From positions 1-25,048 of IMG/VR virus record IMGVR_UViG_3300035661_000314: DNA of 25,048 nucleotides; one strand, written 5' to 3'. Under the pieces are notes generated by a model, which saw nothing but the letters and a program-made list of their open reading frames with translations, searched no databases and was not told the DNA's origin. Positions within the stretch are counted from its first letter, which is position 1. Each line of letters begins with the position of its first letter. Shown piece by piece: positions 1 through 23,641 of the stretch. Made by a program: the position numbers and the translations under genes. The DNA comes from a virus.

Positions 1-2
1 AA

Positions 3-560
3 TACGGGTGTGCAATAGATTTTGTCGAGAATCAAACTGAAGAATTGTGCATAGCCGCAGTCATGGTTGACCCTGACGCACTAGCATTTATTCGTAAAAA
101 GACACATAATATCTATATGGCCGCAATAGAGGCATCTGGGTCTGCAATATCATATGTTAGCACCGGTACCCAAACACCTGAGATGCGCATGACCGCAGTA
201 AAACAAAATGGTGATAATATACGTTTTGTGTCAATTGGAGAGCGTTGCGGTGAACTGGCCTTGGTTGCCGTAACAAACAATGGTGCAGCATTGGCGTACA
301 TACCAACTATGTTTCAGAGCCCAGAAATTTGTATGACGGCAGTTAAGCAAAATGGGTTAGCATTACGACATGTTTTTGATTATTTTGTAACATCTGAGAT
401 TTGTATGGCCGCTGTTCGATCAGAGTGGGCGGCTTTACAATTTGTAAAGGAACAAACCCAGGAGATCATCATGATGGCAATCATGATGGATGACCGTGCA
501 ATACGATATGCTGACAAACGGGTGCTTGAGCAGCAACCCGTAGTTGCAATAGAAGCGTAA
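3..560 (+). CDS. DUF4116 repeat protein, 5' end cut by window edge
   Basis: The reading frame is open from base 3, so the gene begins before the window; a TTG at 45 is an internal Leu codon, because the upstream residues (YGCAIDFVENQTEE) already fit the repeat. About seven degenerate copies of a roughly 22-residue unit follow, each with a core like ELCIAAV or EICMAAV, then a hydrophobic pair (ALxFV) and often QTP/QTQ. This is the signature of DUF4116, a family of unknown function described from bacteria and large DNA viruses. The alternation suggests two short helices per unit and hence an alpha-solenoid, which is inference. The last unit decays before the stop. Related genes lie at 1129, 1539 and, on the other strand, near 22231-22882. 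Recognition as DUF4116 is fairly secure; no enzymatic motif is visible. Confidence 0.85.
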   Translation, partial: YGCAIDFVENQTEELCIAAVMVDPDALAFIRKKTHNIYMAAIEASGSAISYVSTGTQTPEMRMTAVKQNGDNIRFVSIGERCGELALVAVTNNGAALAYIPTMFQSPEICMTAVKQNGLALRHVFDYFVTSEICMAAVRSEWAALQFVKEQTQEIIMMAIMMDDRAIRYADKRVLEQQPVVAIEA

Positions 561-569
561 TCAAATCAC

Positions 570-597
570 TTGAACTTATAGTAAAAGATGCTATTAT
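570..597 (+). promoter_or_regulatory. sigma70-like promoter, candidate
   Basis: TTGAAC at 570-575 is followed after 16 bases by TATTAT at 592-597, close to the bacterial -35/-10 consensus. It lies in the 65-base gap before the 626 gene. This gene has no TATAAATA-type late box, so a host-polymerase or early promoter would fit. The call rests on sequence match only. Confidence 0.4.
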
Positions 598-625
598 GCT
601 TATGTAAAATCAATGGAGGTTAGCT

Positions 626-1132
626 ATGGCAAAACTTAAACTCACGAGTACTACTAATATCTTTGGCACTACGGTAAAGCTCGAAGGGAAGAATGTCCCA
701 GCTATTACCATTGGTGAAGGACTTGAATATGATCCTGTGAAGAAATTGAAGAAGACAATGCCAGATGGTTATTTGTTCCGTAGTCCAAATTTGGATCCAG
801 ACAATTTGAACGAAATTTGGCCAACAGTTGGCCGGTTCTCCGGTGATGCCACATTGTGGGTAGAACATACCCCTGCAAAAGTTGACAAGAAGGCAACTAC
901 ACCGTCCGAAGATCATGGCAAGTTTACAGGTTTTGCGCGAATTGCAGACCAATCCGACGCGGCGTTGTTTGCGTACACTCATAGTTTGTTCGAAAAATGG
1001 AGCGATGCTCTAGAAGAAGAAGCTCAAGCAGAAGCCAAGAAGAAGCAGGAATCGCGTATCAAGGTTGATAAGGACGGCAAGATCACCATGGACGTTGAAG
1101 TTGTGACCTTGCGCGATGAAGACCCTGAGTGA
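626..1132 (+). CDS. unrecognised 168-aa protein coupled to DUF4116 genes
   Basis: The ATG is preceded by a strong ribosome binding site, TGGAGGT at 614-620. The product has a beta-rich-looking N-terminal two thirds, a Glu/Ala/Lys helical stretch at about residues 130-146 (LEEEAQAEAKKK) and a short acidic tail. I do not recognise the family; there is no signal peptide, transmembrane segment or catalytic motif. Its stop codon overlaps the GTG start of the next gene (GTGA at 1129-1132), which in turn overlaps the 1539 gene, so the three form one translationally coupled unit with two DUF4116 proteins. A shared function with them is a fair inference, but the nature of it is unknown. Confidence 0.8.
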   Translation: MAKLKLTSTTNIFGTTVKLEGKNVPAITIGEGLEYDPVKKLKKTMPDGYLFRSPNLDPDNLNEIWPTVGRFSGDATLWVEHTPAKVDKKATTPSEDHGKFTGFARIADQSDAALFAYTHSLFEKWSDALEEEAQAEAKKKQESRIKVDKDGKITMDVEVVTLRDEDPE

Positions 1133-1542
1133 TTTATACTACTAAATTAGTATACAGAGATGATGAGCTCGAAGATCTGCTACCGTTTGCCTCCGCTGAA
1201 ACGGTAGCGTTATGTCTTGCCAGAGTTAAGCACAATGGTCTGAATCTGAGAAATCTCATATTTCAAAATCATGACATTTGTCTTGCTGCTGTTACAGCCG
1301 GAGGATGGTCTATAGACTATGTACGTGATCAAACACCGGAGATTTGTATTGCCGCTGTATCAAATTCAGCCGATGCGTTGCAATATGTTAACGAACAAAC
1401 TCCCGAAATTTGTATGGCTGCTATCCGTAACGATCCATATGCCCTCGAATTTGTAAGAGAACAGACTCGTGAATTATGTATGTACGCTTTGATGATAAAT
1501 GAGGATGTGTTGGACTTTATTAAACCTGTGGTATTGATATGA
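1129..1542 (+). CDS. DUF4116 repeat protein, 137 aa
   Basis: The GTG start overlaps the stop of the 626 gene by four bases, and its own stop (TGA) overlaps the ATG of the next gene at 1539. About five 22-residue DUF4116 units are visible, with cores ALCLARV, DICLAAV, EICIAAV, EICMAAI and ELCMYAL separated by hydrophobic pairs and QTPE/QTRE. The first unit and the last (ending IKPVVLI) are degenerate, as expected for solenoid caps. It is the shortest of the plus-strand DUF4116 genes. The two central units are nearly consensus, suggesting recent duplication or strong constraint. Function is unknown. Confidence 0.85.
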   Translation: MIYTTKLVYRDDELEDLLPFASAETVALCLARVKHNGLNLRNLIFQNHDICLAAVTAGGWSIDYVRDQTPEICIAAVSNSADALQYVNEQTPEICMAAIRNDPYALEFVREQTRELCMYALMINEDVLDFIKPVVLI

Positions 1543-2546
1543 CAACTAAGGCAGATTACATTAAGGTCAAAGCGCACCCACCCAAGCTTGCAAATGTACG
1601 AAACCAAACCAACAGAATCTGTATGATGGCTGTACAGTTAGATGGTGTGATGCTGCGATTTGTTAATAAGCAAACACCGGAAATTTGCATGGCGGCTGTT
1701 AGTAATACGTGGCGTGCATTAGAATTTGTTGAAGAACAAACGCAAGAATTATGTTATATTGCCATAGGACAACATGGCTCTGCATTAAAATATGTAAAGA
1801 AACAAACGCCTGATATGTGCGAGGCGGCTGTAACTACAGATGCTATAGCCTTCAAATATGTTAAAAGACAAACATCGGAGGTGTGTTATCTTGCGGTAGA
1901 GTATGACCCTGATCTCATACAATATGTCCATAAACAAACACAAGACTTGTGCTTGCTAGCTGTCAGCAGATATGGCGAATCTTTAAAATATGTCAGAACA
2001 CCAACAGACGATATATGTCTTGCTGCTGTTAGGAATGATGGCAATGCATTAATGTGGGTCCCTAGGGAGTTTAAAACACCCAAGATATGTCTCGAGGCTG
2101 TTAAGCAATCGTCGCATGCATTGCGTTATGTTAACAGACAAACACGTCAAATAGTTACCACGGCTGTGTCAAGGAATGGATATCTGTTACGATATGTTAA
2201 AAGGAAGTCACCTGAGGTTTGTCTGATGGCCGTAACGAATTACGGGGCAGCATTGGAATATGTAAAGAATCAAACAAATAAGATATGCATGGCAGCGATA
2301 AAAGAGGACCCTAGTTCGGTTAGGTATGCTAAACACGTAACACGTAAGATGGCACTGATTGCAGTGAGTCGTGATCCCGGATGTGTTATGTGGGTTCCAC
2401 AAACGCCTTCTATATGCTTGCTTGCTATTCAACAAGATCCAATGTGTTTGCAGTATATTCGTAAACAGACAAAAGAACTTTGCATGTTAGCAGTATTATT
2501 GGACAGTGATGCCGCACAATATGTAAATGGGGACGTCTTGGGTTGA
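1539..2546 (+). CDS. DUF4116 repeat protein, 335 aa, about 14 repeats
   Basis: The ATG overlaps the preceding stop (ATGA). From about residue 25 to the end the protein consists of some 14 tandem units of 22 residues (24 in places), with cores such as RICMMAV, EICMAAV, ELCYIAI, DMCEAAV, DICLAAV, EVCLMAV and KICMAAI, each followed by a hydrophobic pair (ALEFV, ALKYV) and Q-T-P/Q-T-K. The cysteine in the core is kept in most units. There is no other domain apart from a short basic N-terminus. An extended alpha-solenoid used for protein binding is the simplest structural guess. It ends four bases before the convergent 2551 gene, with no terminator hairpin visible between them. Confidence 0.87.
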   Translation: MTTKADYIKVKAHPPKLANVRNQTNRICMMAVQLDGVMLRFVNKQTPEICMAAVSNTWRALEFVEEQTQELCYIAIGQHGSALKYVKKQTPDMCEAAVTTDAIAFKYVKRQTSEVCYLAVEYDPDLIQYVHKQTQDLCLLAVSRYGESLKYVRTPTDDICLAAVRNDGNALMWVPREFKTPKICLEAVKQSSHALRYVNRQTRQIVTTAVSRNGYLLRYVKRKSPEVCLMAVTNYGAALEYVKNQTNKICMAAIKEDPSSVRYAKHVTRKMALIAVSRDPGCVMWVPQTPSICLLAIQQDPMCLQYIRKQTKELCMLAVLLDSDAAQYVNGDVLG

Positions 2547-2550
2547 AATT

Positions 2551-2931
2551 TTAATTATCTGACCGCACCAGCTGTATGGTCCGGCGCTTTATTCGTTTGT
2601 TCATCATATCTTTCAGATTAACTACCGGACCTTGAACTACGTTCGTATCTTTGCTAGCAAATGTTTTCAAATATGGTTTGTATGGTCTGAATCTGTCACG
2701 CAAGAACATGTTAATTGGTATACACCGATTACTTTCCCACCACCATGCATCACCACAACTTATAAAGTCTTGTTTCATTTCTGGAGTGAACGACGAATCT
2801 ATAGCATAGATGCTTACATAAAGGTTATCTGAATGTTGGATGATTCCTATGTATTCGTTACCGAGATGATTAATGATTGTTAGGAACGGAAATTTCTCTT
2901 GTAATAGCTTATACGTATCGTTAATTGGCAT
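2551..2931 (-). CDS. unrecognised 126-aa phage protein
   Basis: The frame is open back to 3198, but upstream of about 3037 it overlaps the plus-strand 3038 gene. The ATG at 2931 (MPINDTYKLLQ) is the best start: a late-type ATAAATA box on the minus strand at 2960-2966 predicts transcription from about 2954, leaving a 23-base leader with an AAGAG-like site. The product has a CGDAWWWESNR segment followed by a basic stretch (RDRFRPYKPY) and a basic C-terminus (KRIKRRTIQLVR). The WWWESN segment looks like something conserved in T4-like phages, but I cannot name a family. It is convergent with the 1539 gene, 4 bases apart, and divergent from the 3038 gene. Confidence 0.65.
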   Translation of the reverse strand: MPINDTYKLLQEKFPFLTIINHLGNEYIGIIQHSDNLYVSIYAIDSSFTPEMKQDFISCGDAWWWESNRCIPINMFLRDRFRPYKPYLKTFASKDTNVVQGPVVNLKDMMNKRIKRRTIQLVRSDN

Positions 2932-2959
2932 GATCACTCTTGAGCTTGATATATGTTTG

Positions 2960-2966
2960 TATTTAT
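2960..2966 (-). promoter_or_regulatory. T4-type late promoter box
   Basis: ATAAATA on the minus strand, seven of the eight bases of the T4 late consensus TATAAATA. The predicted start of transcription near 2954 is 23 bases before the ATG at 2931. It lies back-to-back with the plus-strand box at 3006-3012. Confidence 0.5.
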
Positions 2967-3005
2967 GTGCATATTTAATCCATTTTAAAAAATGTAGATT
3001 ATACG

Positions 3006-3012
3006 ATAAATA
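3006..3012 (+). promoter_or_regulatory. T4-type late promoter box
   Basis: ATAAATA within CGATAAATAC, matching the T4 late -10 element. The predicted transcription start is near 3018, about 20 bases before the ATG of the 3038 gene. Confidence 0.55.
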
Positions 3013-3037
3013 CAAGTCAACGAGACGACGATGATCA

Positions 3038-3877
3038 ATGCCAACTGTATATCTATTCAAATTTCCAGAATATATTCCACTAGTTCGCTGGGATGATCGC
3101 GCTCCAAACATTAATTGGCCCATGATACAGTACGATACCAAGATATTCAAAGGTGTACCAAACAACATAGAGTTTGCAATCAAGAATAACGATCGCAAGA
3201 CTGTGAAATTGGTAGATTATCAACTAGAGGCACAGATCCAGGCTGTTAATTCGCCGAGTGATAGTAAGGGCTTTTTTCCAGAGTTGATATTAACAAAACA
3301 ATGCATCATCATTGATGAACTGTTTGGTAAAGCTAGATTACAGCTATTACCAGAAGAAATAGATACATGGTCACCGGGCTATTATAGATATGTTATTCGT
3401 TTAACAGACGGTGCAAACAATAGTGAATATCTATATACTGACGTCAACAAGAGTGCATTTGGTATATTTGAATTGAAAGAAGGCGTTGTAAGTAGTTTAG
3501 CACCAGCTATCACTATAGATAGCACCCATTTTACTGCTACACCTATTTCATCATTCAACGAAACATGTTTTGTTAGTAGTGGTATACAAGGCGATAGTCA
3601 AACTGGACGAACAAACGGTACTCATACTATAGCAGTATATCATAATAATTTTCAAGGTAAGTTCTGGGTCCAAGGCAGCCTCAATAACGAACCGCCACTT
3701 GAATCAGAATGGTTTGACATTAAGCTATCGGCTGACAACGATTACTTGACCATTTTAAAAGATACAACTAGTCCAACCTTAATTAGTTTCACGATGAACC
3801 TATATTGGTTGAGATTTATATACAAAGAAGATGCTGCAAACACTGGTAAATTTTTGCAAGTATTGTATAAAGGCTAA
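3038..3877 (+). CDS. unrecognised 279-aa protein, probably virion-associated
   Basis: The ATG at 3038 follows a late-type promoter box with a 20-base leader; the ribosome binding site is weak. The sequence is rich in alternating polar/hydrophobic segments typical of beta-sandwich proteins (FWVQGSLNNEP, IAVYHNN, YLTILKD) and ends FLQVLYKG. The first 110 residues, with an NDRKTVKLVDYQLEAQ segment, recall the N-terminal beta domains of phage structural proteins, and the remainder resembles a second beta domain. No enzyme motif is seen. A late promoter plus beta-rich composition suggests a virion component; the exact role is not recognisable. Confidence 0.75.
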   Translation: MPTVYLFKFPEYIPLVRWDDRAPNINWPMIQYDTKIFKGVPNNIEFAIKNNDRKTVKLVDYQLEAQIQAVNSPSDSKGFFPELILTKQCIIIDELFGKARLQLLPEEIDTWSPGYYRYVIRLTDGANNSEYLYTDVNKSAFGIFELKEGVVSSLAPAITIDSTHFTATPISSFNETCFVSSGIQGDSQTGRTNGTHTIAVYHNNFQGKFWVQGSLNNEPPLESEWFDIKLSADNDYLTILKDTTSPTLISFTMNLYWLRFIYKEDAANTGKFLQVLYKG

Positions 3878-4917: not shown

Positions 4918-5576
4918 TGACTATAGTGCTAATAACAGATGCATGTAACACACCCACACCTAACAAAGAATATATTAGGGCTGCGTCATTACTCGGAGAC
5001 GAAGCAGCCATCAAATCGTTTGAGATAATCGACACAGAGCTTCTGAGTGATTTGGATATTAGCGTCAATGCTGCATTAATAGGTGTGACAACCGAAGAAG
5101 CATTGGAGATGTTTATGCGACTCAACAAATCTGAAAAAATTGTTATAACTAGACTTAAGGATACTATGAGTAGTGACTTTGAAATAATCAAATTGGCAAA
5201 TGATTATAATGTTAACGCTGCATGGTTTGTTAACAATAAACAAGCAGACATAGCATGGGTATTGTATGACAGTTCAACTAAGAATTTTTCGATATTAGAT
5301 ACCACGGCTACTGCAAAAGACTCAAAAAATGTAGTACTGGTCCCAGGCCAATGGACAACTATGCAACGTTCAACCACCGGTAAAGAAATGCTATTAGTTC
5401 TCGGCGGCAATGCATCTGTATATACTATAGATGCTAGCAGTGACTTAGAATTACATGGACGATACCAATCACTAGAACATACTATAATACCAACAAACTT
5501 TTGGTATCAGATTACTAATGAAGGTGTAACACCTGCTACTATTACCGTTACTAGTCATGACTTATCACACATATAA
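4917..5576 (+). CDS. unrecognised 219-aa protein between primase and helicase, cupin-like C-terminus
   Basis: The ATG shares a base with the primase stop (TAATG). The N-terminal about 120 residues look alpha/beta: an initial strand MTIVLITDA, an acidic helical region, and a second strand KIVITRLKD. The C-terminal about 80 residues (VVLVPGQW, EMLLVLGGNASVYTI, TIIPTNFWYQITNEG, ATITVTSHD) follow the strand pattern of a small cupin/RmlC-like beta barrel, but the metal-binding histidines are not evident, so this is only a weak structural resemblance. Its place between the two fork enzymes suggests co-expression with replication genes. I cannot assign a function. Confidence 0.72.
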   Translation: MTIVLITDACNTPTPNKEYIRAASLLGDEAAIKSFEIIDTELLSDLDISVNAALIGVTTEEALEMFMRLNKSEKIVITRLKDTMSSDFEIIKLANDYNVNAAWFVNNKQADIAWVLYDSSTKNFSILDTTATAKDSKNVVLVPGQWTTMQRSTTGKEMLLVLGGNASVYTIDASSDLELHGRYQSLEHTIIPTNFWYQITNEGVTPATITVTSHDLSHI

Positions 5577-5621
5577 AATTCGTGGACTACAAGAAATTAC
5601 GTTATAGTGTTATGAGGAACA

Positions 5622-7031
5622 ATGGCTCAAGAAGAATACGAAAATAGCAACGATTACGGTGAAGATAAACAGAAACTCTTGATAGACATTCTATTGAGTA
5701 GTGAAGAAGTATTTTCACGTTGCCAAAACATACTAAATGCATCACATTTTATAAACAAATTCAGACCTGCAATGCGATTCATATTGAAATATGCAGATGA
5801 ATTTAAAGTGTTGCCTAAGATAGAACATGTTAATGCAGAAACTGGTTCACACTTTACTCACATTGACAATATATCAATCCAACATCAAGATAGTTTCCTA
5901 AAAGAGATTGAAAGCTTTAGTAAGAATAAAGCATTAGCTAATGCTGTATATGATGCAGTGGAACTTATCGACAAAGGCAATTACGGAGAAGTTGAGAAGA
6001 GAGTTAGAGAAGCAATTCTCATAAGCTTACAAAGTGATCTTGGTACTAACTACTTTGACGATCCGCGAGCACGATTGTTGGCTATTAAAGATGGCAACGG
6101 ACAAGTTAGTACAGGTTGGAAAGCGGTAGACGAAAAACTCTATGGTGGTATAAACAGGGGTGAGATTACTATTTGGGTAGCAGGGTCGGGTGTTGGTAAG
6201 AGTTTGTTCTTACAAAATCAAGCATTGAATTTAGTTAAGCAAGGTCTTAACGTTGTTTACATATCACTGGAGCTTAGTGAAGGTTTAACATCTATGAGAA
6301 TGGACAGTATGTTAACTGAGTTTGGTACTCGTGACATATTTCGTAATTTGGATGCAGTTGAGATTAAAGTAAAGCAGTCACAACGTAAGTCGGGTGACTT
6401 GTATGTTAAGCAGATACCACAGGGTAGTACGTGTAATGATATAAAAGTGTATCTTAAGAATTATGAAATAGAACGTCAACGACGTCCAGATGTATTGATT
6501 GTGGACTATCTTGATCTTGTGTTCCCTAACAACAAGAAGATTAATCCAAGTGATTTGTTTATTAAGGACAAATTTGTTACTGAGGAAATGCGTGGCATTG
6601 GTGTTGAATACAAGATGATAGTGTTAACTGCATCACAATTGAATCGTAGCGCTATTCAAGAACAAGAACACGATCATAGTATGATTGCAGGTGGTATTAG
6701 TAAGATTCAAACAGCTGACAACGTGATCAGTATTTTTGCGAGTACAGCTATGAAAGAACGTGGACAATATCAAGTGCAATTCTTAAAAACAAGATCTAGC
6801 AGCGGTGTTGGTAGTAAGGTGTATCTTGGATTTGATCCAAATACATTGCGCATATTTGATTTAGATGAGGATGCATCTATAGTTGCAGCGGGAATGAGTG
6901 GGGCCGATGTATTTACAGACTTAAGACGTAAGAATTCAGCTAATGCTAAACTAGATTCCACTAATGTAACTGATCAACAGGCTAAGCCGGCCACAGATCT
7001 GAGTAACCTACGCAATCTAATTAGGCGTTAA
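5622..7031 (+). CDS. T4 gp41-like replicative DNA helicase (DnaB family)
   Basis: ATP-driven hexameric helicase that unwinds DNA at the phage fork and binds the primase encoded upstream. The ribosome binding site GAGGAA is at 5614-5619. Residues 1-145 match the position of the DnaB-type N-terminal domain. The RecA-like core has Walker A GSGVGKS with K193 (base 6198), the strand VVYISLELSEG, and Walker B VLIVDYLDLV with D290 and D295, then TASQLNRS (the sensor-type H3 region) and a KTRSSS segment near the arginine-finger position. Length 469 aa agrees with T4 gp41 (475). The C-terminal 50 residues are a polar tail. Its stop overlaps the stop of the convergent 7028 gene. Confidence 0.93.
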   Translation: MAQEEYENSNDYGEDKQKLLIDILLSSEEVFSRCQNILNASHFINKFRPAMRFILKYADEFKVLPKIEHVNAETGSHFTHIDNISIQHQDSFLKEIESFSKNKALANAVYDAVELIDKGNYGEVEKRVREAILISLQSDLGTNYFDDPRARLLAIKDGNGQVSTGWKAVDEKLYGGINRGEITIWVAGSGVGKSLFLQNQALNLVKQGLNVVYISLELSEGLTSMRMDSMLTEFGTRDIFRNLDAVEIKVKQSQRKSGDLYVKQIPQGSTCNDIKVYLKNYEIERQRRPDVLIVDYLDLVFPNNKKINPSDLFIKDKFVTEEMRGIGVEYKMIVLTASQLNRSAIQEQEHDHSMIAGGISKIQTADNVISIFASTAMKERGQYQVQFLKTRSSSGVGSKVYLGFDPNTLRIFDLDEDASIVAAGMSGADVFTDLRRKNSANAKLDSTNVTDQQAKPATDLSNLRNLIRR

Positions 7032-7501
7032 TTTGCTTTATGAATAGCCCTGAGTTTTGTTAAGATTCGGCTAGTTGTGCTAGCATCAGCAGCTAATAGC
7101 TTATCAAATGCTATTGCAAGTTCACGAACTTGTGCTGAATTTGACGGCATTTTGCCTGCTTTAAGTGAATTGAATGCAGCATTGAATGTCTTTACATTCG
7201 TTAGTCCTAAGTCTTTAGCAAGTGTTTGGATGCTTATTCCGCCAGTTAAACGTTCTGGCTTCTTCTCTTGAGTCATTAAATCTGTAGCAGATTGATCAAC
7301 TGCTTCTGTATCTGCAGGTCCGTCGGTTCCTTCTGCTTCTGGTGCAGCGTCAGCTTCATCTGGAACAGGGCTACCGTCTGGCACTTCTTCACCGTCTGCA
7401 CCACCGGTTTCGGTAGCATCATCATGTAGATCTTCGTCAGCAATCTCTGCCAATCGTTGCGCTATTTTGCGGAAATCTTCTGCCAAGAATCTGTTGTTCA
7501 T
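7028..7501 (-). CDS. acidic 157-aa protein with prohead-protease-like N-terminus
   Basis: The ATG at 7501 is preceded on the minus strand by AAGGTG. The protein has three parts: a short amphipathic N-terminal helix (MNNRFLAEDFRKIAQRLAEI), a low-complexity acidic Asp/Glu/Pro/Ala linker at about residues 23-75, and a C-terminal helical domain (LAKDLGLTNVKTFNAAF onward). LAE at residues 6-8 fits the [L/I]-x-E site of T4-type prohead proteases, so a scaffold or internal head protein is possible, but I do not recognise the family. A late-type box lies upstream inside the 7529-7560 palindrome. Its stop codon overlaps the helicase stop on the other strand. Confidence 0.72.
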   Translation of the reverse strand: MNNRFLAEDFRKIAQRLAEIADEDLHDDATETGGADGEEVPDGSPVPDEADAAPEAEGTDGPADTEAVDQSATDLMTQEKKPERLTGGISIQTLAKDLGLTNVKTFNAAFNSLKAGKMPSNSAQVRELAIAFDKLLAADASTTSRILTKLRAIHKAN

Positions 7502-7528
7502 TGCTACACCTTGTATTACTATTGTTAG

Positions 7529-7560
7529 TATTTAGTCTGATGGACAGTTTAGACTAAATA
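7529..7560. promoter_or_regulatory. palindromic divergent late-promoter pair
   Basis: A perfect 10-base inverted repeat, TATTTAGTCT at 7529-7538 and AGACTAAATA at 7551-7560, with a 12-base spacer. Each arm ends in a CTAAATA box resembling the late promoter on its own outward strand, aimed at the 7501 gene (minus) and the 7592 gene (plus). It could also act as an operator. The boxes match 6 of 8 late-consensus bases. Confidence 0.5.
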
Positions 7561-7591
7561 TCACATAACTATTAGCTTAGGACAATGAACT

Positions 7592-7837
7592 GTGACTAAT
7601 TTAAAGAACTTTTTAGATGAATTGGACAATATTATTCCCGCTAAGAGTAAGCACAGTATTGTTGAGAGCCGTGCCACTCATATCATAGCTAGTACTGTAA
7701 ATTTGGTACATCTTATCAAAGAAAGCTATTCGGAAGAAGAAGCAAAGGATCTAATTAAGCGTCTCTATCGTAGTATAATGACAGAGGATGATCGCAAGTT
7801 TACCCGTAAGATACGAGAACTAAAAGGTAAGAAATGA
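7592..7837 (+). CDS. unrecognised 81-aa protein
   Basis: The GTG start follows TTAGGA (7578-7582 region) at a suitable distance; the ATG at 7585 opens only a four-codon frame. The product is mostly helical with a basic C-terminus (DDRKFTRKIRELKGKK). An IVES motif near residue 24 and the FLDELDNI N-terminus are reminiscent of small T4-like head-associated proteins, but no family is recognised. The stop overlaps the ATG of the following gene (ATGA at 7834-7837), so the two are coupled. Expression probably comes from the plus-strand box at 7554-7560. Confidence 0.7.
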   Translation: MTNLKNFLDELDNIIPAKSKHSIVESRATHIIASTVNLVHLIKESYSEEEAKDLIKRLYRSIMTEDDRKFTRKIRELKGKK

Positions 7838-8424
7838 AGTATAAAGATCTCACAGAATCAAATTCAGATCTTATAACTGAAGCAGGACAATTGCTATCTA
7901 TAGCAAATTGGTTTAAAGATAAGTACGGCTCTGTATTAAAGCGCATCGGTGAGAAAGAAACTAAGAGTTTCGTAAATCAACATCAACGTTTCTTTTTACG
8001 TTGGATGGGTAGATTCCGTGCAGAATGGTCAACTATTACAATGAATGTCGTATATCAATATATGCATTCTGTAAACAAACTATCAGATATGGATATCGTC
8101 GACGTAGTTAATAAAGTTCTTAAAGAACCAGAGACCGCCGGAGACCAACTAACAATTGCACAGATTCGTGATCATGATAGATCATTGTTAGTAAGCAGTT
8201 TAAGTAAAGTTCCTAAATCGAATCAAGGACAAATTATAACAGAGAAAATGATTGCGTCAGGGTCAATGCGCCAATTAGAACAACATTGGTCACAACAGGC
8301 ATCTGCACAATACGGACGTAAATCTGTTAAAAGTGCAGGCAGCGGTTATAAGACACAAAGCGGTCCACCTGTTGCTAGAACTGCTGAAATAGATTCTGCT
8401 ATTAGCCAATTGGAAAAATTATAA
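7834..8424 (+). CDS. 196-aa candidate internal head protein
   Basis: The start overlaps the previous stop (ATGA), and the stop shares a base with the next ATG (TAATG). The N-terminus MKYKDLTESNSDLITEAGQL has two [L/I]-x-E sites (LTE at 6-8, ITE at 14-16), closely resembling the capsid-targeting leader of T4 internal proteins that the prohead protease removes. The rest is helical with many basic and aromatic residues (FFLRWMGRFRAEW) and a Gly/Ser/Gln-rich loop near the C-terminus. It does not resemble a named enzyme. A role inside the capsid is inferred from the leader and from the neighbouring genes with similar leaders. Confidence 0.72.
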   Translation: MKYKDLTESNSDLITEAGQLLSIANWFKDKYGSVLKRIGEKETKSFVNQHQRFFLRWMGRFRAEWSTITMNVVYQYMHSVNKLSDMDIVDVVNKVLKEPETAGDQLTIAQIRDHDRSLLVSSLSKVPKSNQGQIITEKMIASGSMRQLEQHWSQQASAQYGRKSVKSAGSGYKTQSGPPVARTAEIDSAISQLEKL

Positions 8425-9074
8425 TGAGATTGAATAATATCAAGCCATTGACCGAAGCAGACCTAAATGATAAGAAGGTTGCCAGAATATTGCAGAATAT
8501 AGCTGACGGTATAGAAGCCTCTGCTAAAGGTTCTATAGTAGGAACAGTAAGTAATGCATACAAGAGTCTTGTTGGCAAGAATCCGGAAGGTATTTGGAAA
8601 AAAGCCGGTAGTCCTATTGAGAGCAATGCGATATACTCTGTTATGATTAAAGCAGGAATACCACAAGACATTGTCAACAAAGCCTTTAAAGTTTCACGTA
8701 TACAATACGGGACCAATGCCGCACCAACGAAAACCGACGTCGGTGTTATAAGTACTGGTAATATTGCACTAGATGCATTTGTCAATGATTTGGTTTCTAA
8801 GTATGGTAAAGAATATGCTATTCAATATCTTCAAAATTTGAAACGTTCGAAACCTAGTACAAAGTCTACAGCACAATCACAAAATGCTGGCAAGAATCAA
8901 ATTGCATATAAGGCATCAGATGGCCAGACATATAAGTTGAGTGTTGGTAAGATGGGCGATCGTCTTTGGGTTAATGCACAGACGGGTGCAGAAGCATCTG
9001 ACGAGATTGATCAAGAATTGGAAAAGGCAGAAGCTGCTAAAGCGGCGGCGCCCCGTAAAGTTTTAGGACTATAA
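8424..9074 (+). CDS. 216-aa candidate internal head protein
   Basis: Coupled to the upstream gene by TAATG. The leader MRLNNIKPLTEADLND contains LTE at residues 9-11 followed by Ala, a good match to the T4 prohead-protease site. The middle is helical and Lys/Ala/Gly-rich; a beta segment at about residues 160-190 (YKASDGQTYKLSVGKMGDRLW) is followed by a charged Glu/Ala-rich helix and a short tail. I do not recognise a family. The organisation (cleavable leader, basic body) is what T4-like encapsidated proteins show, so packaging is inferred but unproven. Confidence 0.72.
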   Translation: MRLNNIKPLTEADLNDKKVARILQNIADGIEASAKGSIVGTVSNAYKSLVGKNPEGIWKKAGSPIESNAIYSVMIKAGIPQDIVNKAFKVSRIQYGTNAAPTKTDVGVISTGNIALDAFVNDLVSKYGKEYAIQYLQNLKRSKPSTKSTAQSQNAGKNQIAYKASDGQTYKLSVGKMGDRLWVNAQTGAEASDEIDQELEKAEAAKAAAPRKVLGL

Positions 9075-9077
9075 CAC

Positions 9078-10403
9078 ATGCGATTGCAAGACATATCGTC
9101 ACCGCGTATACTGACAGAATCTAAAGCCAGAATAGATCATCCTGAGGATTTAGTATTCATGGATGGTATAGCAGGTGCACAACGGGCATTGAATGCCATG
9201 TTGTCTTTGGCAAATGATCCATCTAATGTGACTGTTAAATTTGATGGTAGCCCCAGTCTTATATTTGGATGGGATGCAGATGGTTTTGTATTAACTGATA
9301 AGAGTGGATTCAACTCTAAGAAATATGATGGCATGCCACGAAGCACAGAAGCTGTGAACGCAATGCTAGCCGGTGATACTGGCAGACGTCTAACAGATAC
9401 AACCCCAGAAGGGTTGAAGAAGAGACAGGTATATGCTAGTGGCATAGCGGCCTTATACGAATTGTTGAAGTCTATAGTTCCTAAGACAACAGTTGGATAT
9501 ATTCAAGGCGATCTGTTATGGCAAGGTACACCGCCGATAGTTGATGGCAAATATGTATTTGGTCCTGTGAAGATACATTATAAGGTTCCAACTAACAGTG
9601 ACCTCGGCAAGAATATTGCAGTAAGTAAGGCTGGTATAGTAATACATAGTATCTTTAAGAGTCGTGCAGATATGGAACCACGTACTATAAATGACATTAC
9701 TAAATTAAATCTAATTCACAATCCACAGATTGTAGTTGTACCTCATAAAATGAAAGCAACAGAACAACTAACATTGCCAACAGACATTGTTGCATCTGTA
9801 AAGAACTTAATCGAAAAGCACGGCGCCGAAATAACATCATTCTTAAATGATAGTGTTAAGTCATTGCCAGCATTATTAAAATCATTTGCTGCGTATAAAG
9901 CTAGTACTGGTAATAGTAACTATGACAATGCCGGCGAAGAATTTGTTACATGGTTGGGCACCGACAGTGCTAGCATAAAGATGCAATCTAGCATACGGGT
10001 GCATATTAGCAGTAATAGCACAGGTTATGCAGCATTGTGGAAATTAATTCAAACTCTAACACAACTTAAATTGAATCTCAAATCACAATTAGATAACAGG
10101 ACACAGAGTGTTGTTGCCGCAGAATATGGACATAATGCCCATAAAACATTGCACGGTAAACGCGGACACGAAGGTTTTGTCGCTGACACACAATATGGTA
10201 AGATAAAGCTAGTTAATCGTCATGAATATATGCATAAGCCTCAAGCTGAAATAGCTGAGAATGCAAGTGCAGGCGGAACATCGGCTGGCGGTATTGCAAG
10301 TGTAGCTAATCCTGTGGGACCAACTATAAGTAGAACTCCGAACCTCTTTGGTTATGTCCCTGTAAAGCGTAAAAAGACCAAGAAGAAACCAAGCGTAAAG
10401 TGA
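9078..10403 (+). CDS. DUF6267-like protein with KxDG nucleotidyltransferase signature
   Basis: The ATG follows AGGA at 9065-9068 with a 9-base spacing. The body resembles the phage family DUF6267 (from memory, not searched): GIAGAQRALNAML at 30-42, then VKFDGSPSLIFG with K54-F-D-G57. KxDG is motif I of the DNA/RNA ligase and capping nucleotidyltransferase superfamily, where Lys takes the AMP or GMP. Later segments could be motifs III to V: GYIQGDLLW (140-148), GPVKIHYKV (162-170) and KAGIVIHS (184-191). The leader MRLQDISSPRILTES has LTE at 12-14. The C-terminus is a Gly/Ser linker and a very basic tail (KRKKTKKKPSVK). A packaged adenylyl- or RNA-ligase-like enzyme is possible; activity is inference. 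Confidence 0.75.
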   Translation: MRLQDISSPRILTESKARIDHPEDLVFMDGIAGAQRALNAMLSLANDPSNVTVKFDGSPSLIFGWDADGFVLTDKSGFNSKKYDGMPRSTEAVNAMLAGDTGRRLTDTTPEGLKKRQVYASGIAALYELLKSIVPKTTVGYIQGDLLWQGTPPIVDGKYVFGPVKIHYKVPTNSDLGKNIAVSKAGIVIHSIFKSRADMEPRTINDITKLNLIHNPQIVVVPHKMKATEQLTLPTDIVASVKNLIEKHGAEITSFLNDSVKSLPALLKSFAAYKASTGNSNYDNAGEEFVTWLGTDSASIKMQSSIRVHISSNSTGYAALWKLIQTLTQLKLNLKSQLDNRTQSVVAAEYGHNAHKTLHGKRGHEGFVADTQYGKIKLVNRHEYMHKPQAEIAENASAGGTSAGGIASVANPVGPTISRTPNLFGYVPVKRKKTKKKPSVK

Positions 10404-18288: not shown

Positions 18289-18639
18289 ATGCGTTATGCA
18301 GATCTTACATCGTTACCAGGAACAACCGAGGAGGCTAAAAACAGCATCCTCGACCTGGTGGCTATATATGCAAGTAAGAATAAAACTGAAATACCAATGA
18401 AGGTTGTTCTTGCTATATTGCATGACCAAGGGTATGATATGACACCTAAGATGATCATTGACATTGTTACAGGTAATAGCAGTGTTAAGGATACTACAAC
18501 CGATATGATTACACTTAAAGGTGCAGATGATGCCGGACTTGACGTCGAGGGCGCAGAAGATCAAGTCAACAAAGATAAAGAAAAAAATCAAAAGCATGTT
18601 GAGAAACTAGCACAAAAAGCAGCAAGGAAGCGTCAATAA
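18289..18639 (+). CDS. unrecognised 116-aa helical protein
   Basis: AAGGA at 18277-18281 precedes the ATG. The first 65 residues form a compact helical domain (LDLVAIYASKN, VVLAILHDQGYDM, TPKMIIDIV) and the C-terminal 40 residues are a highly charged Lys/Glu/Ala coil (NKDKEKNQKHVEKLAQKAA). The leader MRYADLTSLPG resembles those of neighbouring candidate capsid-targeted proteins but lacks a strict [L/I]-x-E site. The charged tail contains a run of seven A. The stop shares a base with the next start (TAATG). Function unknown. Confidence 0.7.
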   Translation: MRYADLTSLPGTTEEAKNSILDLVAIYASKNKTEIPMKVVLAILHDQGYDMTPKMIIDIVTGNSSVKDTTTDMITLKGADDAGLDVEGAEDQVNKDKEKNQKHVEKLAQKAARKRQ

Positions 18640-21122
18640 TGGCAACTACTAACACTATTTTTATATCAGCAGTAGATGCAAGACAAAACCCAATCCGTAA
18701 TCGTGTAGTACATGATGAAGGACGTGCAATCGAAAGTGCTATATTAGAAGCGGCCGCATTAGGTATGTATAGTGTCACAGTATCTGACAATACACCGATG
18801 ACACAAAGTACGTCTGATACTGTAGTTGTTAATACATTTGACAATAACACCGGGACATTTTACGTTCCCGGACATCCGTTTACAACTGGTGAAATGGTTA
18901 GTATTAGTTCTACAACTAACTTGCCTTCACCACTTAATTCTACAGCATATTATTTTGTTGTATATGTTGATGCTGATCACATACGCTTAGCAACTACATT
19001 ACAAAATGCAGTCAATAGTCGGCCAGTTACAATAGCTATTACTAGCGGTGTTAGTGGAATAGTTGTTAATGATAACGGTGCAGGTTACGAATCGGCACCA
19101 ACTGTTACTTTATTAGGTGGTGGGAGCACTACTCCTGCAACTGCGGTGGCATATCTTGCTAACTACGGCGACGTGAGTAGTATTGCAGTAATAACCCCAG
19201 GCAGTGGTTACACAGATGTACCAACTGTACAAATATCGCCGCAAGGTGCTGGTGCAACGGTCGGATCGGTTACGTTTAAAGTTGTTGCCGCAGTAATATC
19301 CACCCAAGGTCAGAATTATAGACTAAATGATGTATTGTCTGTAGTTGGTGGTACAGGCACGTCATGTACAGCTAAGGTCACAAGCGTAGATAACGTTGGT
19401 GCCGTGACATCTATAACAGTTACAAATGCCGGTAACTATAGTGCCTTACCTACATTGGCTAACGTTGCTACAACTTCTAGTCCAAGTGGCGGTACAGACT
19501 GTGTGCTCGATCTTACAATGGGGTTGTCGACGGTAACACTATCTGCAAATGGTACAGGGTATGTTGACATACCAAATGTTGTAGTAGCCGGCGGTGGTGG
19601 AACAAATGCCACAGCAATTGCACAGATTGTTGCAGGCACAGTAGCTAGTATTATAATCACAAATGCTGGATCGGGGTACACCTCTGCACCATCTATAGAT
19701 GTGTTAACTGGACAGAGTGCTTATGCAGTGCCTGTATTACAACCAACGTCAGTTGGCAACATCATACTTACTAACAATGGTGGCAACACTTATGTGATTG
19801 CTCCCTCTGTTACTATCAGTGCTGCAGGTACCGGCGCAACAACCGGAACAGTGTATACAAAAGTAACATCTGTTGTTATGTCAAATGGTGGTAGTGGTTA
19901 CGTAGTCGGTGATACATTATTAGTAGCCGGCGGCGCCGGTAGTCAGAATGCCACTATAGTGGTTAACTGCATCGGGTCAATCGGCGACATTGTGGCATTC
20001 ACATTAGCAACAAGCGGACTGTACACTCAGATGCCAGTATTAGATAATAACAGTGTTATTGGTGGTAGTGGCCACGCAGCCAGCTTTAACCTATCTATGG
20101 GTATAGACAACATAATATTAACAAACGGCGGCAGTGGTTATACATCGTCGCCAACGGTAGTAGTGAATAGTACCACAGGTTACGGCGCATATGTTATTGC
20201 ACAAATGGATGGTGATGCAGTTCTCGGACTTGCAGTTATAACATCTGGCACTGGATACAAAACAACTCCTACTATAACAATTAACGGCGGAAGTGGTGCC
20301 ACAGCTATAACAACACTGTCGCCGACATCTGTTGATACTATCTCAATTAATACTGGTGGTAGTGGATATACAAGTGCAACCGCATCGATAACAGGCAATG
20401 GTACAGGTGCTACAGCTAACGTTACTGTCGCTGGTGGAGCTGTCACAGCAGTAGTGGTTACAAACGGCGGCAGTGGATACACTATTCCTCCGACAGTTAC
20501 TATATCGGGCGATGGCGCAGGTGCAACAGCATCAGCATACCTTGTTGCTACTACTATTGCTACCATAACATTAGTATCAGGCGGTAGCGGTTACACATCG
20601 CCGCCAACAGTTTATATCACAGGTGCAGGTACAGCTAGAACTTCGTTAACACCGACAGGTGTTGACAGAATAGACGTAACAGATGGCGGCAATGATTACA
20701 GCAGTAATCCGATGATATACATAATACCATCGTCTAACCAAATTCTCAGTGTTGTATCACCTAGTATGACAGTCACTAGAGGATTTAGCATTGCAAACAT
20801 AGTTGTTATCAATCCGGGTAATGGTTATGTCTCTGCGCCAGATGTTTATATAAGTGCACCACAATCAGCAGTCGGTGCATACGCATCGGCGGCAGCAAGT
20901 ATCGGTGCCACAACCGGAACAATGACTATTGTATCTTATCCAACAAGCAATGATTATTTTGCTGCATGGAAAGGCTATACTATAAGCAATGATCAGTACA
21001 TCCGTCCATATAACGATTACATGGATACTATCATTGCTTATTTTACAAGCTTGGGATATACGATAAACCGAATTACAAATCCTGCTACAAATAATACGTT
21101 AGCATGGAATGTTAAGTGGTGA
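18639..21122 (+). CDS. 827-aa Gly/Tyr beta-repeat structural protein
   Basis: Coupled to the previous gene by TAATG. An N-terminal region (VDARQNPIRNRVVHDEGRAI) precedes a small beta domain, then about 16 repeats of the form G-x-G-Y-x-x-x-P-x-V-x-I run from about residue 140 to 745; examples are GAGYESAPTV, GSGYTDVPTV, GSGYTSAPSI, GTGYKTTPTI and GSGYTIPPTV. The C-terminal domain is distinct and rich in Asn, Tyr and Trp (YFAAWKGYTISNDQYIRPYN). The composition and repeats fit a beta-solenoid or stack-type virion protein, perhaps a tail or fibre-associated one. Recombination among repeats is easy to imagine. No lyase or protease motif is seen; its receptor or partner is unknown. Confidence 0.78.
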   Translation: MATTNTIFISAVDARQNPIRNRVVHDEGRAIESAILEAAALGMYSVTVSDNTPMTQSTSDTVVVNTFDNNTGTFYVPGHPFTTGEMVSISSTTNLPSPLNSTAYYFVVYVDADHIRLATTLQNAVNSRPVTIAITSGVSGIVVNDNGAGYESAPTVTLLGGGSTTPATAVAYLANYGDVSSIAVITPGSGYTDVPTVQISPQGAGATVGSVTFKVVAAVISTQGQNYRLNDVLSVVGGTGTSCTAKVTSVDNVGAVTSITVTNAGNYSALPTLANVATTSSPSGGTDCVLDLTMGLSTVTLSANGTGYVDIPNVVVAGGGGTNATAIAQIVAGTVASIIITNAGSGYTSAPSIDVLTGQSAYAVPVLQPTSVGNIILTNNGGNTYVIAPSVTISAAGTGATTGTVYTKVTSVVMSNGGSGYVVGDTLLVAGGAGSQNATIVVNCIGSIGDIVAFTLATSGLYTQMPVLDNNSVIGGSGHAASFNLSMGIDNIILTNGGSGYTSSPTVVVNSTTGYGAYVIAQMDGDAVLGLAVITSGTGYKTTPTITINGGSGATAITTLSPTSVDTISINTGGSGYTSATASITGNGTGATANVTVAGGAVTAVVVTNGGSGYTIPPTVTISGDGAGATASAYLVATTIATITLVSGGSGYTSPPTVYITGAGTARTSLTPTGVDRIDVTDGGNDYSSNPMIYIIPSSNQILSVVSPSMTVTRGFSIANIVVINPGNGYVSAPDVYISAPQSAVGAYASAAASIGATTGTMTIVSYPTSNDYFAAWKGYTISNDQYIRPYNDYMDTIIAYFTSLGYTINRITNPATNNTLAWNVKW

Positions 21123-21132
21123 TATTCACTAG

Positions 21133-21375
21133 ATGCGTAGTACGTTACACGGTCCAGAAGTATACCTGCTAAAAAGCAAAAAACCACGGATAGTAGCACT
21201 GATAGCGGCCGCCAAGGAAATGTCTATAGAGGACATTGAAAAGCTTGAAGAAAAACCCGACATAATAGCCGGTTTATTAAAACTCAAGAAGATTGAAACA
21301 GACGGTGATTCAATGTTACTCGCCGAAAGATTGGCAGACTTAATGACTGCTAAACATCATCCAAATTTAAAGTAA
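21133..21375 (+). CDS. unrecognised 80-aa protein
   Basis: The ATG is ten bases after the preceding stop, without a strong ribosome binding site, so it may be translated by reinitiation. The product is helical and charged (MSIEDIEKLEEKPDIIAGLL, then LKKIETDGDSMLLAERLADL). It ends in KHHPNLK. It is the last gene of the 14088 block and abuts the stop of the convergent 21376 gene. No family is recognised. Confidence 0.65.
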   Translation: MRSTLHGPEVYLLKSKKPRIVALIAAAKEMSIEDIEKLEEKPDIIAGLLKLKKIETDGDSMLLAERLADLMTAKHHPNLK

Positions 21376-22191
21376 TTAATTACCGATTTGACCTTGTGCA
21401 GTATCTTGACTAATCAATGACACATGGTTCTTACTGTCAGATTCTGGCCATGCATAAATGTAATCGCCAAACTGATCCTTAACAAGCTTGAATCGTATTG
21501 CACCAACAACATAGTGTTGAACCTGTGCAGTATATCCTGGCATAACAGTATCAAAGTCTATAGCAGCATCATCAACCTTTTGACCATACTTAACTACCCA
21601 TGCTGACACAGCTTTAACTTCTCTAGTTGAGTTGGGTCCTTGACCGCCAACATTGCCAATCATGACAATATCTTCTGTCGGTGTCGTAGTGAATTCACGG
21701 AACAATGCTTTGCCCAATGTTAAAATAGATCTACTCATGTTACCCGGAAGATGTGATACTGTATGCCATGTTGGGTTTATCGCATGCGCATCTGTCATGG
21801 CAATTTCTCTGCTTATAACAGCAGGAACTTGTTCTGGCGTAACATGTGGAATTACTGCATCATGATCGGGGATTATCTCTTCGTCGTCCATTCCTTGGTC
21901 GTCGCCCATATCTGCCATGTCACCAAGGTCTAACTTAGACATAAGATCGCGCATTGCATCTGTATGTTGAATGTTAGAAGTTGCATGCAATGTGTCTGCT
22001 TTTGTTCCGCGCTTAAGGTCAGACACTTGCTTAATAACAGGATCTGGGTGTGCATTTGTTTTATTCTGAGTAGCAAGCGGTGTTGTTGGCGCCGGTTCAT
22101 CCAATATTGTATCCCAGTCTGTTACACCTGGTGTTTTGAAATCTGTCTTTGCTTCTAGTATCTTCTTAATAGCTTGTTTAAAGGAACTCAT
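21376..22191 (-). CDS. 271-aa candidate capsid-targeted protein
   Basis: The ATG at 22191 follows a GGGG-like ribosome binding site and a perfect late-promoter box at 22218-22225. The N-terminus MSSFKQAIKKILEAKTDF has ILE at 11-13 followed by Ala, a good prohead-protease-type site. A flexible Pro/Thr/Ala region and an acidic stretch at about 94-112 (DMADMGDDQGMDDEEIIPD) precede a C-terminal beta-rich domain (IVMIGNVGGQG, AVSAWVVKYGQKV, HYVVGAIRFKLVKD, YIYAWPESD). No enzyme family is recognised. Its stop codon lies immediately beside the stop of the convergent 21133 gene, and it reads in the same direction as the DUF4116 gene just upstream of its promoter. Confidence 0.72.
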   Translation of the reverse strand: MSSFKQAIKKILEAKTDFKTPGVTDWDTILDEPAPTTPLATQNKTNAHPDPVIKQVSDLKRGTKADTLHATSNIQHTDAMRDLMSKLDLGDMADMGDDQGMDDEEIIPDHDAVIPHVTPEQVPAVISREIAMTDAHAINPTWHTVSHLPGNMSRSILTLGKALFREFTTTPTEDIVMIGNVGGQGPNSTREVKAVSAWVVKYGQKVDDAAIDFDTVMPGYTAQVQHYVVGAIRFKLVKDQFGDYIYAWPESDSKNHVSLISQDTAQGQIGN

Positions 22192-22230: not shown

Positions 22231-22593
22231 TTAGCTTGCATTAATACTTTGTAGAATAGCATCAAGTTCTGGCCACGCCACTCCGACCGATTTAATGGCG
22301 CTGCAACATTGATTTATTTTGGTTCTACCATAATTAGCTCCATTGTCGCCCATGGCACCATAATAAAGGGTTAGTTGCAATATTACTTTTATTATCAAAT
22401 TTTTATATTTGTCTATATTAGCTTCGAGCCAATCGCGGTTATTCGGCTTTAATAGAGTATCCAACGGCTCATAATAATTAGGAATTTTACTTGCCATAGC
22501 TGCTATGCATTTCTCGGGAGTTTTATTTGCAACAAATTTTAATACGTTGCCGTCTTGTTTTAGTGCTGTTAAACATACATCAAGTGTTTGCAT
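22231..22593 (-). CDS. 3' part of frameshifted DUF4116 gene
   Basis: This minus-strand frame begins with two further DUF4116 units (MQTLDVCLTALKQDG, then KTPEKCIAAMASK) and continues into a different C-terminal domain of about 80 residues (YYEPLDTLLKPNNRDWLEAN and later SAIKSVGVAWPELDAILQSI). No ribosome binding site is expected at the ATG, because the sequence just upstream already encodes the preceding DUF4116 unit in this same frame. The upstream part lies in the 22580 frame, one base off at the T9 run 22619-22627. The non-repeat C-terminus is not found in the other DUF4116 proteins of the window. Function unknown. Confidence 0.65.
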   Translation of the reverse strand: MQTLDVCLTALKQDGNVLKFVANKTPEKCIAAMASKIPNYYEPLDTLLKPNNRDWLEANIDKYKNLIIKVILQLTLYYGAMGDNGANYGRTKINQCCSAIKSVGVAWPELDAILQSINAS

Positions 22594-22882
22594 CCATATA
22601 AACTCTAAATACTTTGGATTTTTTTTTAACAGCAGCCATACAAATTTCCGGGGTTTGGTCTTTTACATATCGTAATGAATGGGGGTTGTTTCGTATAGCT
22701 GCCATACATATTTCGGGAGTTTGCTCTTTTACATATTCGAGTGCATTGCCATAGGCTTGTACAGCCGCCATACATATCTCAGGAGTTTGATTCTTAATAC
22801 GGTACAACGCCTCTTGATTGTGTTTGACTGCAAACAAATCATCCGAATTAGTCTTAACAACTGTGGAGTTTTTTTGCCTCAT
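22580..22882 (-). CDS. 5' part of frameshifted DUF4116 gene
   Basis: The frame is open from 22951, but the ATG at 22882 (MRQKNSTVV) is the better start because a minus-strand ATAAATA at 22909-22915 puts transcription at about 22903. Three near-identical DUF4116 units follow (NQTPEICMAAVQAYGNALEY, then EQTPEICMAAIRNNPHSLRY, then DQTPEICMAAVKK). After the run of nine A (22619-22627 on this map, T on the plus strand) the frame degenerates to KSKVFRVYMDANT and stops. Removing one A would give AAVKKNPKYLEF, joining directly to the 22231 frame and making a protein of about 216 aa. The gene is thus broken, erroneously sequenced, or expressed by slippage. Confidence 0.65.
   Translation of the reverse strand: MRQKNSTVVKTNSDDLFAVKHNQEALYRIKNQTPEICMAAVQAYGNALEYVKEQTPEICMAAIRNNPHSLRYVKDQTPEICMAAVKKKSKVFRVYMDANT
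22619..22627 (-). repeat. A9 homopolymer at the frame break of a DUF4116 gene
   Basis: Nine T on the plus strand, nine A in the sense strand of the minus-strand DUF4116 gene. One base fewer restores the consensus repeat across the break. Confidence 0.65.
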
Positions 22883-22908
22883 ATATGATATCACTAAATC
22901 GCATCTAT

Positions 22909-22915
22909 TATTTAT
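22909..22915 (-). promoter_or_regulatory. T4-type late promoter box
   Basis: Minus-strand ATAAATA within AATAAATAATAG. It sets the likely start of the DUF4116 gene at 22882. A TATAAAGA on the plus strand (22921-22928) lies back-to-back with it. Confidence 0.5.
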
Positions 22916-22952
22916 TGCAGTATAAAGATAGACATCAACGATGATGCACATG

Positions 22953-22963: not shown

Positions 22964-23641
22964 ATGAAAATTAATCCATTATATACATATAGCAAACTTA
23001 GCCGCAAAGATTTGCCAGAGGGACGACGTTATGTGCTTCCAGATGGTACTAGTACAGCAGCAAGTGTCACAACTATCCTCAGTAAAACTAAAGATATGTC
23101 CCATTTAATTAAATGGAAAAAACGTATCGGCGAAGATAAAGCTAAGGTAATTACAGAAGAAAGTTCCGGATTAGGAACAACTATGCATGCCCATCTAGAA
23201 GCATATGTGACAAACCAACCACGCCCAGGTGGAACTAATTATGGACGTATGATGGCTGCTAAGATGGCAGATGTTATCATAAAAGAAGGTTTGGTTGATG
23301 TAGATGAAGTATGGGGCGTAGAAGCTAGTTTGTATTACGACACGCTCTGGGCAGGCACCACAGACCTCGTGGGTTTATACCAAGGCAAGCCTGCTATAAT
23401 GGATTTCAAAACAACTATTAAGCCTAAGAAACCCGAATGGGTAGAAGATTATAAATTACAGTTGGCAGCATATCAGATGGCGCATGACAACATACATAAA
23501 ACTGATATACAGACAGTGGTTGTGTTTATGGTTAGTAGAGACTTTGAATTTCAGAAGTTTGTTTGGTCCGGTCCGGTCTTAGAAGAAGCACGAGTCCAAT
23601 GGGCACACAGAGTTAGTGATTATTACAATCGTTTTACGTAA
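22964..23641 (+). CDS. PD-(D/E)XK family exonuclease
   Basis: A nuclease-fold protein of the RecB/Cas4-like PD-(D/E)XK class, known in T4-like marine phages as a putative exonuclease for DNA recombination, repair or host DNA turnover. The key residues are visible: GTTMHAHLE (about 71-79) with the helix-borne His, D134 in AGTTDLVGL, D147-F-K149 in IMDFKTTI, and QLAAYQMAH, the Q-x-x-x-Y motif. Length 225 aa fits a single-domain nuclease. There is no 4Fe-4S cysteine cluster of the Cas4/AddB kind. No ribosome binding site is apparent. It is divergent from the DUF4116 gene and convergent with the metallopeptidase, whose stop is two bases away. Confidence 0.87.
   Translation: MKINPLYTYSKLSRKDLPEGRRYVLPDGTSTAASVTTILSKTKDMSHLIKWKKRIGEDKAKVITEESSGLGTTMHAHLEAYVTNQPRPGGTNYGRMMAAKMADVIIKEGLVDVDEVWGVEASLYYDTLWAGTTDLVGLYQGKPAIMDFKTTIKPKKPEWVEDYKLQLAAYQMAHDNIHKTDIQTVVVFMVSRDFEFQKFVWSGPVLEEARVQWAHRVSDYYNRFT

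Follow-up and report, generated by a model that had tools for sequence, protein, structure and literature searches.

DUF4116 repeat genes as lineage-specific cargo in a probable jumbo-phage fragment

Why does a short piece of phage DNA hold several genes of one repeat family, DUF4116 (PF13475), and is their presence as unusual as a first-pass annotation had proposed? We addressed this in a complete IMG/VR record, a linear fragment of 25,048 bases (hereafter, the window). The repeat genes and the gene lying between them were as follows:

3..560, plus strand: d1, DUF4116 gene, 5'-truncated by the contig edge, seven units of 22 aa (Pfam E 1.3e-22, 79.5 bits)
626..1132, plus strand: g168, conserved non-repeat gene between DUF4116 genes and landmark of the insertion site; homologues precede m215 in many relatives
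1129..1542, plus strand: d2, DUF4116, 137 aa, five units; its GTG start overlaps the g168 stop (GTGA) (Pfam E 1.8e-17, 63.1 bits)
1539..2546, plus strand: d3, DUF4116, 335 aa, 14 units; ATGA overlap with d2 (Pfam E 2.2e-45, 152.4 bits)
22580..22951, minus strand: d4, first frame, DUF4116 units; an ATG at 22882 is also possible (Pfam E 1.6e-18, 66.4 bits)
22231..22593, minus strand: d4, second frame, last DUF4116 units and a C-terminal domain

In hmmscan of the window ORFs, all four DUF4116 ORFs scored above the Pfam gathering cut-off of 24.9 bits, and 18 separate domain matches were detected in the window versus none in 14 control genomes. The family assignment, made earlier from the letters alone, was thereby borne out (E 1.8e-17 to 2.2e-45), as was the presence of such genes at separate places, three on the plus strand and one on the minus strand; the first, d1, had not been recognized as cut off by the contig start. 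The fourth gene, placed earlier at 22231-22882, does lie on the other strand but consists of two overlapping ORFs in different frames. The estimate of about 30 units of 22 residues also held, with 29 clear units phased plus two or three degenerate ones. The unit core is kept at positions 3, 4, 7, 8, 11, 12, 18, 19, 21 and 22, including Ala at position 11 (28 of 29 units) and Cys at position 8 (23 of 29). This cysteine had been singled out previously; it is indeed kept but not special to the phage here, since 96% of 978 units taken from other loci have it too, which makes it the consensus of the family. Positions 17, 20, 1, 2, 13 and 14 are variable, column 17 most of all (3.84 bits in the 978 outside units, 3.56 in the window). 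The intervening gene g168 received no name from Pfam or PHROG.

Its sequence makes a jumbo phage related to PA5oct, Atu_ph07 and Phosso the most likely source of the window. Among isolates, its helicase (5622-7031) shares 47% identity with the PA5oct protein and 51% with the Atu_ph07 and Phosso ones; the figure reaches 79% in IMG/VR contigs, some of 155, 216 and 518 kb. The gene order matches that of PA5oct and is the one conserved in this group of jumbo phages: structural gene, primase, DnaB helicase, virion genes, exonuclease. Because of these identities and this order, the earlier description as a T4-like phage is right about the phage, but "T4-like" fits in a loose, wide sense only. Promoter and terminator scans, and counts of the T4 late-promoter word TATAAATA, gave numbers no higher than in shuffled sequences.

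Several other window genes were recorded. A tail-spike-like gene (24120-25046) combines an Mtd N-terminal domain with a pectate-lyase-like domain (PF12708, E 5.2e-26). An 827-aa protein (18639-21122) with many GGSGYTSPPTVTI-like repeats is kept in relatives and has no Pfam match. The product of m128 (23644-24030, minus strand) contains a HELTH zinc-peptidase-like motif; a similar stretch occurs in the 518-kb contig G027 (L190, 5355-7154), within a protein of 599 aa in which a VVYPGRFQPVHRGH nucleotidyltransferase-like motif is present as well.

The place of the repeat genes was assessed by comparing the order of all window ORFs with that in relatives' contigs. Besides g168, four genes define the insertions:

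2551..3198, minus strand: m215, conserved gene, right border of the d2-d3 insertion; directly adjoins g168 in relatives
21133..21375, plus strand: g80, conserved gene that borders the m271-d4 insertion on the left; lies beside the exonuclease gene in L079 and L080
21376..22191, minus strand: m271, shares its insertion with d4; its N-terminus, MSSFKQAIKKILE/A, is capsid-targeting-like (here and below, a slash marks the putative cleavage site)
22964..23641, plus strand: exonuclease, right border of the m271-d4 insertion (phrog_298 E 8.7e-49; synteny)

Relatives share a conserved block in the same order: g168, m215, structural gene, primase, helicase, further genes, g827, g80, exonuclease, m128 and spike. 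In L011, L012, L014, L016, L019, L020, L022, L026, L031, L033, L034 and L036, some of which may be near-copies of one phage, g168 adjoins m215 without d2 and d3. The gap between g80 and the exonuclease gene, without m271 and d4, is 6 bases in L079 (same contig as L011) and about 40 in L080 (same contig as L036). Within the records L011, L079, L036 and L080, our own unit profile found no DUF4116 match. Since about a dozen contigs are empty at one junction and two of them also at the second, the DUF4116 genes are lineage-specific cargo at junctions of the conserved block. That the same genes might sit at the same place in all relatives, which the first-pass annotation had named as grounds for abandoning its view, is rejected by this synteny. 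Upstream of g168, at the place of d1, relatives have a gene of 200-214 aa, annotated DnaE-like in Phosso; the window ends before the comparison point. Only one of 42 IMG/VR records found via the helicase, many of them short, had a Pfam DUF4116 match, namely the 518-kb G027. No Pfam match was found for m271, nor a homologue among the relatives compared.

Other small genes occur at these junctions in L029, L035, L037, L081 and L082. At the g80-exonuclease junction of L081 (9968-10360) and L082 (4784-5278), the larger of these resembles a RelE-type toxin by eye; a Pfam search found no match.

The fold was predicted for d3, whose 335 residues had been put forward for a solenoid check. The AlphaFold2 model, built with 16 aligned sequences, is a regular alpha-solenoid of high confidence (pLDDT 94.5, pTM 0.82) in which each 22-residue unit folds into two helices, of 10 and 6 residues, in agreement with the unit phasing. 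DUF4116 had already been modelled as an alpha-solenoid in a contact-based study (PMC8078820). In HEAT/ARM comparison, the best VIA Z was 7.0 and no Foldseek match fell under 1e-3; matches to PDB structures were those of a generic solenoid, and by sequence d3 matched no PDB chain. In BFVD, the fold matched DUF4116 proteins from giant viruses (some named F-box or kinase), from Atu_ph07 and from a siphovirus.

We lean modestly towards the DUF4116 genes being lineage-specific jumbo-phage cargo that encodes intracellular binding scaffolds for a target, probably a host protein. A jumbo phage would carry them at junctions of the conserved replication and virion block, and each product would be a rigid alpha-solenoid. 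We infer that the variable unit positions form the surface gripping a partner, that this partner is a protein, and one of the host's own, whose binding might serve counter-defence or takeover. Variable columns are typical of exposed sites in any solenoid and are by themselves no proof of binding. The giant-virus F-box and kinase proteins share the fold, which fits a target-binding role. PADLOC and NCBIfam searches gave no meaningful match.

A further clue comes from the C-terminus of d4:

22234..22500, minus strand: "WPE" helical domain, defined by profile matches and common to DUF4116 proteins of L148 and the 518-kb G027

The last 85 or so residues of d4 match stand-alone genes of 108-110 aa in L029 and L035, which occupy the other insertion site, flanked by g168 and m215. 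A profile of d4 and the L029 and L035 genes independently matched DUF4116 proteins of L148 and L077 at their C-termini. The motif, K..I...W-P-E-[LI]-x-x-I-x-x-S, was recovered in d4 with an E-value of 1.9e-27 by a profile that includes d4. With a seven-sequence profile, 33 matches were found in G027, mostly in a cluster at 199-221 kb and with up to six copies per protein. Fusion of WPE to DUF4116 was seen in the single DUF4116 protein found in L148 and in all four found in G027, of which two had been in the profile and two had not. No Pfam or PHROG family covers WPE, and the six-copy protein had no match in 50,697 phage records. The domain was modelled as all-helical with moderate confidence (pLDDT 79), and the model matched no PDB structure. 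In d4, WPE may add a second module, specific to the lineage, by which the solenoid is capped or tethered. The domain and its repeated union with DUF4116 look like the part that is new; the rest is a known family in a moderately unusual place.

The G027 cluster (IMGVR_UViG_3300017917_001342, 199-221 kb; L190 and L191) covers about 22 kb; its long ORFs reach 890 aa and contain from one to six WPE repeats. In one ORF these are joined to a nucleotidyltransferase domain (PF18765, E 3.7e-8).

Alternatively, the capsid could carry the proteins and eject them into the host together with the DNA, as happens with the T4 internal proteins. Many proteins of these phages begin with M-[KR]-x-x-x-[IL], soon followed by [IL]xE and then A or S, a pattern resembling the T4 capsid-targeting sequence. 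Such starts occur on DUF4116 proteins of SCTP-2 (MKxKHITQYLFE/S), L148 (MRLSQLILE/A) and, in one case, G027 (MQDIRHHIKLIE/S). The motif exceeded shuffled expectation in SCTP-2 (9 of 57 proteins; 9 of 2000 shuffles reached the count) and in the G027 clusters (10 of 22; 0 of 2000). The G027 WPE cluster, with many N-termini of this kind, looks like a packaged-protein family. T4 propeptides have 10-20 residues and are cleaved after Glu (PMC5694885), and T4-type internal proteins are a diverse defence set with the capsid-targeting sequence as their sole common feature (PMC3012670). Against this stands the window itself, where enrichment was weak (5 of 28; 86 of 2000 shuffles) and where d2, d3 and d4 lack a capsid-targeting sequence with a post-Glu cleavage site, the start of d1 lying outside the contig. 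As the motif is found on the SCTP-2, L148 and G027 proteins but not on d2-d4, packaging is plausible for jumbo-phage DUF4116 proteins as a family, whereas for the copies in the window it is unsupported and, we hold, unlikely. Elsewhere in the window (7028-10403 and 21376-22191), the starts of m157, g196, g216, g441 and m271 carry capsid-targeting-like motifs that end in LAE/D, LTE/S, LTE/A, LTE/S or ILE/A.

A broader proposal, which we regard as more doubtful still, is that DUF4116-WPE proteins are a new modular effector family of jumbo phages: interchangeable helical arrays, often with capsid-targeting N-termini, that would be delivered to or made in the bacterium and bind host targets. WPE ties DUF4116 to some ten clustered multi-domain genes of the 518-kb relative, many with capsid-targeting-like N-termini, and the delivered-effector hypothesis is therefore testable by virion proteomics. 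If true, such effectors would be to bacterial viruses what repeat-based adaptors are to giant viruses.

A role inside the phage particle or its assembly, as scaffold or assembly factor, is improbable. It would suit the position of the DUF4116 genes among virion genes and the helicase-to-exonuclease block, which corresponds to a run of PA5oct genes with products found by mass spectrometry, but close relatives keep that block without DUF4116 genes, which sit at variable junctions.

Whether the genes have any present function was considered in light of the broken frame of d4:

22619..22627, minus strand: run of nine A at which the reading frame of d4 changes, from the sequence

The repeat register of d4 crosses this run only with a +1 frame change, going on as NPKYLEFIWMQTLDVCLTALKQDG / NPKYLEFIWMQTLDVCLTALKQDGNVLKFV and ending at 22231. 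The run is possibly an assembly error, a mutation or a slippage site; an exact search of IMG/VR for the stretch of d4 beside it found no match. Because its frame is split, this one copy may be dead, which would agree with neutral or decaying cargo. For the set as a whole we find decay very unlikely, since the three other frames are open, the overlaps of d2 and d3 with the conserved g168 allow coupled translation, and residues are kept while synonymous sites are saturated.

The age of the units was estimated from codon use. In unit pairs with at least 12 identical residues, the same codon was used at 110 of 246 identical degenerate residues, compared with 101 expected from codon usage; across all unit pairs the figures were 1313 of 3041 and 1215. 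The closest pair had 74% nucleotide identity. Mean best identity was 12.1 of 22 residues among window units as against 12.5 with size-matched units from outside, and the inside value was reached by 295 of 300 outside samples; the outside set had been gathered with near-consensus patterns and is thus biased toward consensus. Conserved residues together with saturated synonymous sites argue for long purifying selection on the core. By these counts, the near-consensus units are held by selection and not freshly copied. A recent local burst of unit and gene duplication, the "continuing duplication" read earlier from several near-consensus QTPEICMAAV units, is scarcely credible and was rejected, codon matches being at expectation and window units no closer to each other than to outside ones.

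Binding scaffolds carried as cargo remain our preferred reading. Jumbo phages have hundreds of genes without known function. With its old core, its few varying positions and its presence or absence at fixed junctions, a repeat family of this kind is a good candidate for proteins that bind in a host-specific way.

The occurrence of DUF4116 in other phages was examined with tblastn of two different DUF4116 protein queries against the 50,697 phage records, of which five and six matched, depending on the query: Slicky01, SCTP-2, Atu_ph07 (two records), Manatee Spring podovirus and, with the second query only, a faecal phage. Three DUF4116 genes lie near one another in Slicky01; SCTP-2 carries at least seven such genes, and Atu_ph07 carries at least three. 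The claim that a multi-gene phage family is unusual thus stands as to rarity (6 of 50,697 records) but not as to precedent, three of those phages being multi-gene. Larger sets exist in IMG/VR contigs that may be phage or giant-virus (95 matches in 145 kb, 61 in 320 kb). A terminase is present in four DUF4116-rich contigs; an NCLDV capsid profile had no match anywhere and therefore cannot sort giant-virus from phage contigs. The very large sets of the 144.8-kb contig (L133, L140) and the 320-kb contig (L129-L134) share N-terminal domains of the MDTISKVKIDHKLQTGKK and MHWMTNVTKEQLNDVIQAV types. A bacterial DUF4116 protein (Prevotellaceae, L095, ORF 4941-6023) has a C-terminal part that is LRV-repeat-like (DENEAVRVRVAENPHTCHNTLYALARD) by eye only.

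Compared with known systems, the window proteins agree with PF13475 in their tandem 22-residue QTPEIC-AAV-NG-AL-YV unit, in scores far over the cut-off and in the alpha-solenoid; what differs is the setting, a jumbo-phage fragment in which about 23 kb hold four such genes, and the WPE domain appended to one of them. SCTP-2 (Salicola), Atu_ph07 (Agrobacterium) and Slicky01 (Pseudoalteromonas) likewise encode DUF4116 in several genes per genome, but at different places; some SCTP-2 copies have long N-terminal parts with capsid-targeting-like starts, and none of the DUF4116 proteins examined in these three phages carries WPE. With the T4 internal proteins (IPI, Alt), the likeness lies in the notion of varied accessory proteins that act on the host and in a similar N-terminal signal on some relatives of the window proteins, whereas d2-d4 lack that signal and the fold is unrelated. 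The giant-virus DUF4116 proteins (Marseillevirus LCMAC201, Klosneuvirus, Sylvanvirus; F-box, kinase) have the same fold in BFVD (best E 2.9e-18), but their hosts are eukaryotic and they carry effector domains such as F-box that are absent from the window proteins.
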